Source: an uncultured bacterium | Lineage (GTDB): Bacteria > Cyanobacteriota > Vampirovibrionia > Gastranaerophilales > Gastranaerophilaceae | Reading direction: 5' to 3' | Length of the DNA stretch: 64,000 nt | NCBI GenBank assembly: GCA_902766105.1 | Contig: CACXCI010000032.1 | Location: 1-64,000 of the forward strand | In this document: positions 47,009 through 49,880 of the stretch, piece by piece | Position numbering within the stretch: the first letter of the stretch is position 1 | Layout: each line of letters starts with the position of its first letter | Translations under genes and position numbers: made by a program | The notes under the pieces: generated by a model | What the model saw: only the letters and a program-made list of their open reading frames with translations | The model's database searches: none | What the model was told of the DNA's origin: nothing

Positions 47009-48226
47009 ATGTTTGATATATCATCACCATCAGTATATATACCGGTCATGTTTATGACTATTGTTTTGGTTTATGTTTCTTTTTTATACAAAGATTCAAA
47101 ACGCCATACCCATGATAATACAAAAGATTTGCCCTATTATACAGAAATATCAATGTCTATGGGATATATAGAAAGAAACATTTTGCCGGATGGCAGATTT
47201 CAATACAGGAAACATATAGATTCAGATATCAATATTGAAAACAATACCTATAATTCTTTGCGTCATGCCGGAGTTTTGTATTCAATGTATATGTACGAAA
47301 AATACGGACTTGTAGACAAATACAAAGATTCAAGGATTTTAGCATCAAAATATTTTATAAAACGATATATCAAAAAACTGGGAAAAGACGGCAAATATAT
47401 GATAATTTCCATGCCGGAAGAAGAACAAATTAGATTTCCGATAGCAAAATCCGGTGCGACAGGAATAGCCTTATGTGCTTTATCAAATTTGTATAAAGAT
47501 GGTGAAATTGATTTAAAAATTTTGCAGGGTTTGGGAGAATTTATATTATATATGCAAAATGAAGATGGTAATATTTACGCATATTATGATATAGAAAAAA
47601 GGAGAATAAACAAAGAAGCAGAAGCTGTATTTTACCCCGGAGAAGCCGCCGCTGGTCTTATGTATTTGTACGAAATTGATCCGCAAGAAAAATGGCTTGT
47701 GTCAGCAAAAAATATTATTTTATACCTTGCAAAAATCGGTAAAAAAATGGAATTTGCTATACCGTTTGATAACTGGTCTGTTTTGGCTATAGAAAAAATG
47801 TTCAAAAATAGTTTGGTATCAGACGAAGAAAAAAGTATAATGAAAGCCTATGCAGAACAAATGGCAATCCCAACCTTGAGCGATCAGATTACAAATAGGA
47901 ATAACAGTTACTACGGAGCTTTTAGAGATAATGTAAGACCGTGTAGTTTAGGGGCTATTATGGAAGGTTTGGCATCAATTTATTTCTGTATAGATAACAA
48001 AAACCTGAAAAAAGTTATCTTTAAATCCCTGTCTATTGGAAATATGTTTTTAAGTAAAGTTCAGGTAAAAACCGGCGAACAGGCCGGTGGTCTGCCAAAT
48101 TCCGCAAACTGGGTAAAACAAGGCGTTACTCCAAATGCCAGTATAATAAGAATAGATAACGTGCAACATGTTGCAACCGGTTGGCTTAAATTCCAAAATA
48201 TTCTGAAAATTACAGGGAATTATTAA
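47009..48226 (+). CDS. membrane-anchored alpha/alpha-toroid protein, hypothetical
   Basis: 405 aa. A short membrane anchor (YIPVMFMTIVLVYVSFLY, 10-27) is followed by an all-helical domain with repeating helix pairs and Gly/aromatic loops: ILPDGRFQYRKHID, NSLRHAGVLYSMYMY, SGATGIALCALSNLY, VFYPGEAAAGLMYLYE, NWSVLAIEKMF and ITNRNNSYYGAFRDN. This pattern is that of (alpha/alpha)6 barrels of glycoside hydrolase, lyase or cyclase type. Acidic and aromatic residues in the loops suggest a carbohydrate ligand, probably outside the inner membrane. I cannot name the family; function unknown. Confidence 0.6.
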   Translation: MFDISSPSVYIPVMFMTIVLVYVSFLYKDSKRHTHDNTKDLPYYTEISMSMGYIERNILPDGRFQYRKHIDSDINIENNTYNSLRHAGVLYSMYMYEKYGLVDKYKDSRILASKYFIKRYIKKLGKDGKYMIISMPEEEQIRFPIAKSGATGIALCALSNLYKDGEIDLKILQGLGEFILYMQNEDGNIYAYYDIEKRRINKEAEAVFYPGEAAAGLMYLYEIDPQEKWLVSAKNIILYLAKIGKKMEFAIPFDNWSVLAIEKMFKNSLVSDEEKSIMKAYAEQMAIPTLSDQITNRNNSYYGAFRDNVRPCSLGAIMEGLASIYFCIDNKNLKKVIFKSLSIGNMFLSKVQVKTGEQAGGLPNSANWVKQGVTPNASIIRIDNVQHVATGWLKFQNILKITGNY

Positions 48227-48257: not shown

Positions 48258-49739
48258 TTAGATTTCGCCAAGACTTTCAATTTTATACAAACAGCCAATT
48301 TCTTCCTGCGCCAAAACTGTTATGTCATTAATATAAAGCGACAATAGGGTGAAAAAGATTTGACGGTATTCCATTGGAACAATGAGTATTGGCATATAAA
48401 TATTCAATTTTTTTGATTTTTTTATAATTTTATTGGCAATTTTTTCTGCCAATTCACCATCTATTGTTATTATACTGTCCTCACCTTCATCACATCCTAA
48501 TACAAGTTCGGAATATGTTTTATCTGACAGTTCAAAAGCTGCAATAGTTTCATCATCTTCGTTGACATAGTTTTTACAAATTTGTCTTGACAATGACAAT
48601 CTTATTTTATTTAAAATATCTGCTTTGCTGCTGTCATCTGCGTAATCGTTAATTTTTTCAAAGATGTATGTAATGTTTTTAATTGAAACTTTTTCTTTTA
48701 TTAAACTTGTCAAAAGATATTTAATATCGGCATAAGTCAACAAATCCGGAATAATATTTTCTATCAAAAATTCGTTTTCTTTTTCAACAACTTCTAAATA
48801 CTTATCAACATCTTCATAATCCATTAAATCTTCAACATATTTGATTGCAACAAATTCTAGTGCTTTTGCAATATATTCAGATGAGGTGATTCCTTTTTGC
48901 CAAAAATCTTTTGCTTTGTCTTTTTCTATCCAAATAGTTTTTCTGCCATTTATTAAATCAACAGAATTGGTTGAATTTTTAATTTTCTTTTCCAAATGCA
49001 ACTCATCAGCGTAAAACATCAAACAATCAGGGCAAACTCCTGCTCTGAATACTTCAACACCTCTAATTCTAATGCTAAATTCGCAAGGGTTAAGGTTTTC
49101 ATCATCTTTAAATACAACTTTTGGAATTACATAACCGTTTTCTTCTGTCAATTTTAAACGTGATTTAACGGTTTGAGCAATCAATTCTTCATCTGATTTT
49201 CCTCTATCTGAATCAATAAATCCTAAAAGCTCTTCACTTAAATAAATTGTAAGTTTCTCCTCGTGAAGTTTTGAATACATCAAATCAGGTGAGGTCGCTT
49301 TGTTTAGTTGTGCTTTTAAATCCTCAAGTTCTTTTAGACCTGCAGAAATCTTATCATTCAATTTTTTACGAGAGCCTGATGCAGGATCTTCTGTTTCAAT
49401 CTCGGTTTTAATTTTATTTATTCTTTCTTTTTGTCTGCGAATTTTTTGCTGAATTTCAAGGCATTGTTCGTATTCTGTCAGTTTAGGAGAAAGCATTTTT
49501 TCCATTTGACTTTTAAAATCAGAGATATTAATTATGTCGCTTTCAGAATTGAAATCGGATTTTGCTTCTCGCATAAAGATACAGTTTAATTCCATACCGG
49601 TTTCTTCATCGCCGACTTCGTGCATGCTGTATAATTCCCAACCGTTCATTGACATTTCATTTAACAGATTTTGTAAATCCTGAGCTTCGTTTGCCGAACA
49701 GCTTTTTATTACATATTCCATTCTGTTTTTTTTGAACAT
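48258..49739 (-). CDS. soluble FlhA C-terminal (export-gate) domain protein
   Basis: 493 aa from ATG 49739 (AAAGGAG upstream). Residues 1-60 resemble a DUF4177-type module (MEYVIKSCSANEAQDLQNLLNEM, NGWELYSMHEV); 85-150 form a charged coiled coil; from about 161 to the end it follows the cytoplasmic domain of FlhA/SctV: GYVIPKVVFKDDENLNPCEFSIRIRGVEV, TSSEYIAKALEFVAIKYVEDL, the PDLLTYADIKYLLTSLIKEKVSIKNITYIFEKINDYA block, LSRQICKNYV and the final TVLAQEEIGCLYKIESLGEI. In FlhA this part docks export chaperones and substrates. The eight membrane helices of FlhA are absent and no other flagellar gene is near. See findings. Confidence 0.8.
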   Translation of the reverse strand: MFKKNRMEYVIKSCSANEAQDLQNLLNEMSMNGWELYSMHEVGDEETGMELNCIFMREAKSDFNSESDIINISDFKSQMEKMLSPKLTEYEQCLEIQQKIRRQKERINKIKTEIETEDPASGSRKKLNDKISAGLKELEDLKAQLNKATSPDLMYSKLHEEKLTIYLSEELLGFIDSDRGKSDEELIAQTVKSRLKLTEENGYVIPKVVFKDDENLNPCEFSIRIRGVEVFRAGVCPDCLMFYADELHLEKKIKNSTNSVDLINGRKTIWIEKDKAKDFWQKGITSSEYIAKALEFVAIKYVEDLMDYEDVDKYLEVVEKENEFLIENIIPDLLTYADIKYLLTSLIKEKVSIKNITYIFEKINDYADDSSKADILNKIRLSLSRQICKNYVNEDDETIAAFELSDKTYSELVLGCDEGEDSIITIDGELAEKIANKIIKKSKKLNIYMPILIVPMEYRQIFFTLLSLYINDITVLAQEEIGCLYKIESLGEI

Positions 49740-49749
49740 AATTTCTCCT

Positions 49750-49880
49750 TTGAAGTGCGTTGAGTGTGTTAAGTTTGGTAAGTGCGATAAGTTCATTAAA
49801 CCCTTCGGGAATATATGCTTAGATAATAATCGTTTTGTACTTATCTTACTTATTCACCTATCCTACTTATCCTTCTTAAT
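49750..49880. repeat. AAGTGCGATAAG / CTTACTTATC inverted tracts, right of FlhA-like gene
   Basis: Short direct repeats (AAGTGCGTTGAGTGTGTTAAGTTTGGTAAGTGCGATAAGTT) on one side face ACTTATCTTACTTATTCACC-TATCCTACTTATCC on the other: a long degenerate inverted repeat built from an about 10-bp unit. A similar pair is at 50670-50812, so the nucleoside phosphorylase gene is bracketed by two copies. Confidence 0.6.

Follow-up and report, generated by a model that had tools for sequence, protein, structure and literature searches.

FlhA is usually seen as a single protein in which the channel and the docking ring are inseparable, and subdomain D3 is the ring-forming part of FlhA and SctV rings. A free cytoplasmic domain of another export-gate protein, FlhB, occurs in some bacteria as FlhX. 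For FlhA, the nonameric ring and the role of the linker have been documented (PMC8213127), and structures with bound FliS or FliT describe the chaperone cleft (PMC5932034), which served here as the yardstick. No description of a free FlhA cytoplasmic domain (FlhA-C) was found in the open-access literature, subscription papers being outside the search. Here I describe such a protein, a soluble FlhA-C paralogue called SA, from an uncultured gut bacterium of the order Gastranaerophilales, a group related to cyanobacteria. Its gene lies at 48258..49739 on the minus strand of the window, that is, the whole stretch of 64,000 nucleotides analysed (contig CACXCI010000032.1). The reading I somewhat favour places SA in the cytosol, as an accessory ring or a docking component of a non-flagellar export machine that derives from the flagellum and occurs throughout the order.

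The original prediction, made from the letters of the window, had taken residues about 161-493 for the cytoplasmic domain of FlhA/SctV in a soluble, stand-alone protein, and both points were borne out. The Pfam family FHIPEP (PF00771) matches SA residues 139-481 with an E value of 1.1e-47 over profile positions 309-652 of 657; thus, only the cytoplasmic half is present in SA. The FlhA model of NCBIfam (TIGR01398) matches over profile positions 320-678 (E 4e-46) with 157.5 bits, where its equivalog cut-off requires at least 772 bits, and the SctV model (TIGR01399) gives 83.9 bits. SA falls far below both cut-offs because the membrane half is missing. The closest PDB chain by sequence is Bacillus subtilis FlhA-C (3mix, E 1.3e-24). 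An AlphaFold model was built from 20 relatives (pLDDT 80.6), and all of the 50 Foldseek matches listed for it are FlhA-C or SctV-C chains. The best one is 6ch2_A (E 3.2e-22, TM 0.78 by target), and the comparison with 7amy gave a TM of 0.80 and an rmsd of 3.2. The structural match to subdomains D1-D4 on which the prediction had staked itself was therefore found, and the FlhA cytoplasmic domain, D1-D4 by Pfam and Foldseek, spans residues 139-493 (48261..49325, minus strand). SA has no membrane helix (maximal 19-residue hydropathy 1.22), while in the full FlhA of the same genome the maximum is 2.92 and 71 windows exceed 1.6. SA thus lacks the N-terminal part typical of the family, with its roughly eight membrane helices and the FHIPEP loop; the profile match starts at 309 of 657.

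In the AlphaFold model, the place of the membrane domain is occupied by a coiled-coil-like helical hairpin (residues 89-149; 49293..49475, minus strand), preceded by a beta-alpha-beta-beta module (residues 7-58; 49566..49721, minus strand). The module and the hairpin had been foreseen; the label DUF4177 for the module fared less well. DUF4177 (PF13783) scores 15.4 bits on SA, under the Pfam cut-off of 25 bits, and matches 7 of the 20 relatives, also below the cut-off (best E 0.002). The NCBIfam model Sp36_fam reaches E 2e-5 on the module, again below its cut-off. These weak matches are only suggestive of a DUF4177-like or Sp36-like module.

The open reading frame (ORF) is a real gene. It has 493 codons for a protein of 493 residues (the coordinates include the stop) and starts with an ATG at 49739, whose position is conserved among relatives and which is preceded by a Shine-Dalgarno sequence AAGGAG (49745..49750, minus strand). 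An alternative longer ORF starting at 49796 was rejected as not conserved. Compared with near relatives, dN is 0.07-0.16, dS is near saturation and dN/dS is about 0.04-0.1. Thus, the protein is under purifying selection, and conservation together with dN/dS rejects a pseudogene or an artefact of the metagenome-assembled genome (MAG).

It was considered whether SA is the only, truncated FlhA of its genome. This was rejected, since the genome search found one full-length FlhA at C43:55670-57646 (717.7 bits; the genome is G000, the window is its contig C32, and other genes are cited by contig number). SA is an added paralogue and not a replacement of FlhA, so that the predicted "replacement" of the membrane helices was misleading in this respect. 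The search also found flhB, fliPQR and fliI, for which the prediction had proposed to look. C43 carries the run fliE, fliF, an unassigned gene, fliH and flhA, where the gene is named fliH after a Pfam FliH match of its homologue in genome G013 and weak NCBIfam matches. Elsewhere on this contig, a weak FliJ-like protein is encoded, followed by a hook/rod-like protein. A FliN-like protein, FliO, FliP, FliQ and FliR are encoded on C45, FlhB on C61, a FliI-type ATPase on C98, and rod proteins on C68. The full FlhA, FlhB, FliP and FliI are present in one copy each. This gene set is referred to below as system 2, and the FlhA in it as FlhA-2. System 2 has the components of a type III export apparatus (FlhA, FlhB, FliP, FliQ, FliR and a FliI-type ATPase). 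It does not qualify as a bacterial flagellum, since no Flagellin_N match was found in this genome or in G001, G033 and G134.

Two observations concern the surroundings of FlhA-2. The protein encoded between fliF and fliH (G000:C43, L034:435-1421, minus) and its homologues are conserved, all-helical and 310-340 residues long, and they stand in the place of FliG. A FliG-like identity had been guessed from this position and a weak MgtE_N/FliG_C match, and AlphaFold with Foldseek did not support it (best E 0.1, not FliG). Two proteins starting with MGMAASQAR (G000:C43:32700-34853 and 65510-66562) lie near the cluster without any family match; they are possible secreted parts or substrates.

Is system 2 common in the order? 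FHIPEP matches were found in all 383 sampled Gastranaerophilales genomes, with best scores of two types, around 875 and around 717 bits. When copy numbers were compared gene by gene in ten genomes, the six with flagellins each had two full-length FlhB, FliP and FliI and both FlhA types, while the four without flagellins each had one FlhB, FliP, FliI and FlhA. One type, FlhA-1, groups with E. coli FlhA in the tree and is the flagellar type. Further families of the class carry FlhA-2 as well, and some of these lack a flagellar FlhA. At one locus (L004, G012:C11) the genes for flagellar FlhA and FlhA-2 lie tail to tail with about 8 bp between them. Soo et al. (2014; PMC4040986) read the partial set of flagellar genes in non-motile Gastranaerophilales as remains after loss of the flagellum. 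That set, seen in genomes without a complete flagellum, is probably system 2. The difference is that FlhA-2 appears here as a separate lineage, which flagellated relatives have beside the flagellar copy. System 2 is not a decayed flagellum, since the two systems occur together in flagellated members.

SA with its N-terminal module was found in 172 of 173 sampled Gastranaerophilales genomes and in none of the 213 sampled other genomes of the phylum; its named relatives are MAGs of Candidatus Gastranaerophilales or Melainabacteria. In the FHIPEP tree, which was read unrooted, SA forms one clade (100/100), and the lineage of SA and FlhA-2 is split from all flagellar FlhA, that of E. coli included (100/99). 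This grouping holds whether or not the long-branched soluble proteins of other families are included, and uniting SA with flagellar FlhA-1 was rejected (p-AU 0.036). The identities of SA, 28-29% to FlhA-2 and about 25% to FlhA-1, agree with the tree. As judged from these sequence comparisons, SA has its origin in the FlhA of the non-flagellar system 2 and not in the flagellar FlhA. Among the roles that had been put forward, a part of a reduced export system is supported by the single export set, the lack of flagellin and the closeness of SA to the FlhA of that set.

The subdomains and cleft positions of SA were defined by alignment to E. coli FlhA. Subdomain D3 (residues ~306-384; 48588..48824, minus strand), which contains LIKEKVSIKNITYIFEKINDYA, is the best conserved part, with an identity of 0.60 within SA and 0.36 to FlhA-2. 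D2 and D4 are least similar to FlhA-2 (0.16 and 0.18), and D4 is the least conserved subdomain within SA (0.32). Of the chaperone-cleft residues between D1 and D2 (Asp456, Phe459, Leu461 and Thr490), Asp456 alone is retained; its counterpart Asp261 (48957..48959, minus strand) is invariant in 20/20 relatives. In these relatives Phe459 is changed to T/S/N, Leu461 to K/R and Thr490 to R/K. Thus, the cleft is retained but chemically different.

SA therefore resembles flagellar FlhA-C (PF00771/TIGR01398) in having D1-D4 by sequence and model and in keeping the D3 motif (L-IKEKVSIKNITYIFE) and the cleft Asp456. It differs in lacking the membrane domain, in having a helical hairpin and an alpha/beta module instead of the linker, in carrying basic or polar residues for the hydrophobic chaperone dimple, and in coexisting with a full FlhA. 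SctV-C of injectisomes (TIGR01399) shares the fold (Foldseek matches to YscV, CdsV, InvA and SsaV, TM by target 0.68-0.80) and likewise lacks the flagellar hydrophobic cleft, but SA scores lower to SctV than to FlhA and has no membrane domain. Like FlhX, SA is a second, soluble export-gate cytoplasmic domain alongside the full membrane protein; however, FlhX derives from FlhB and is much smaller.

The gene order BamA-like, Skp, uridine phosphorylase and SA is shared by the window and nearly all close relatives, the BamA assignment having been made by eye only; a further neighbour in relatives is a GH77 4-alpha-glucanotransferase. As a clue to function, these neighbours (Skp/OmpH, uridine phosphorylase, GH77) led nowhere. 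In six of nine genomes (G001, G033, G090, G096, G137 and G013), the contig with SA also carries a system-2 gene 9-26 kb away, whereas G006, G075 and the genome of the window show no such proximity; this comparison of nine related genomes gives a hint of linkage and no more. In G013, fliJ-fliK-flgD-flgE stand immediately downstream of SA, and the system-2 cluster is 13 kb away. In the window, a 405-residue protein without family match (47009-48226, plus strand) is encoded convergently with SA and is not kept beside it in relatives.

Other soluble FlhA-C proteins exist in the phylum. Families f11, f13, f20 and f21 have many more of them, with up to a dozen FHIPEP matches per genome, and also hold proteins made of the last FlhA subdomain alone. 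In the tree, these soluble proteins group with a further FlhA type that their own families have; thus, free FlhA-C arose more than once or predates the order. In family f13, soluble FlhA-C is fused to an N-terminal, DNA-binding HTH_17 domain in genomes G385 and G394 (L297:5318-6556, minus, E 1e-11; L296:4765-6015, plus, E 4e-13), and in G385 the distance to fliR and flhB is about 1.3 kb. G399 and G411 of family f21 (L298-L303, L308) and G393 (L306) have up to 10-12 FHIPEP matches per genome, mostly C-terminal fragments in proteins of 330-900 residues, one of which has two copies in one frame. Proteins of 83-136 residues matching only FlhA D4 were found in G585, G389, G413, G394 and G385 (L309, L310, L311, L312 and L313, respectively). 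At L314 (G096:C10:27000-38000), an FlhB C-terminal fragment is part of a 339-residue protein near two short FHIPEP-C fragments, one of which has an N-terminal hydrophobic segment.

How might SA work? SA would be a system-2 protein, a paralogue of the FlhA export-gate domain that resides in the cytosol. Because it appears to keep the D3 and D1 faces that FlhA-C subunits use for the ring, it probably forms a cytosolic ring of its own, enters the FlhA-2 ring or stacks onto it. The N-terminal module and the hairpin, in the place of the channel, may act as an adaptor. The altered cleft, with Asp456 kept and the hydrophobic neighbours turned into Lys/Arg, may bind a ligand other than FliS/FliT-type chaperones, and SA might thereby pass on either the ATPase complex or one particular class of substrates to the membrane gate. 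As the cleft is re-made with basic residues and the genome lacks flagellin, SA is less likely to titrate flagellar chaperones of the FliS/FliT type.

A role as an accessory ring or docking part gains support from the presence of SA in genomes which have no flagellin and exactly one export set, system 2. Several facts weigh on the other side. In the window and close relatives SA stands outside any export operon, and its direct neighbours in G013 are flagellar hook genes and not system 2. Moreover, FlhA-2 is found without SA in G134 (98% completeness), G223, G229, G305, G342 and G367, so that SA may be dispensable, and three genomes have SA without an FlhA-2 match. The branches of SA and the FlhA-2 stem are long, and their grouping may partly be attraction. 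The main rival, to which I give a minor but real chance, is a cytosolic regulator outside the export machine, which would detect free chaperones or substrates and signal the state of export to gene expression or assembly. The fusion of other soluble FlhA-C proteins of the phylum to HTH_17, one next to fliR-flhB, and the location of SA away from structural genes in most genomes speak for it. However, SA has no DNA-binding or enzymatic domain by Pfam or NCBIfam, and the best conservation falls on the ring subdomain D3, which a monomeric sensor would not need.

The constant neighbours in near relatives, which belong to outer-membrane biogenesis and metabolism (BamA-like, Skp, uridine phosphorylase, GH77), could instead mean that the domain was recruited to a function outside type III export and kept near such genes by chance. 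I consider this improbable, since SA is almost confined to genomes with the FlhA-2 system, lies on the same contig close to system-2 genes in most of the genomes compared, and conserves D3 strongly. Slightly less credible still, and already disfavoured, is the idea that SA serves the true flagellum, as a soluble docking ring apart from FlhA or as a sink for chaperones. It would fit the SA gene standing directly before the flagellar fliJ-fliK-flgD-flgE genes in G013/G007 (read in G013), but SA persists in many genera without flagellin or flagellar FlhA, is closer to FlhA-2 than to FlhA-1, and has lost the hydrophobic chaperone cleft.

If SA is an accessory part of system 2, a bolder version may be entertained tentatively: a split export gate, in which a flagellum-derived, non-flagellar machine conserved across this order of gut bacteria uses a pair of FlhA-type rings. 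One of them would be fixed to the channel, and the other would be soluble and detachable and would bring its own substrates. If this is true, soluble FlhA-C proteins would form a layer of type III export that recurs and has gone unrecognised, and some lineages would wire export to transcription through fusion with a DNA-binding domain. An ancient soluble copy of FlhA in nearly the whole order is a natural separation of the channel and the docking ring. The finding further indicates that common, mostly uncultured gut bacteria have a complete export machine of a non-flagellar kind, so far read as a flagellar remnant, and such a machine makes its exported cargo a directly testable question.
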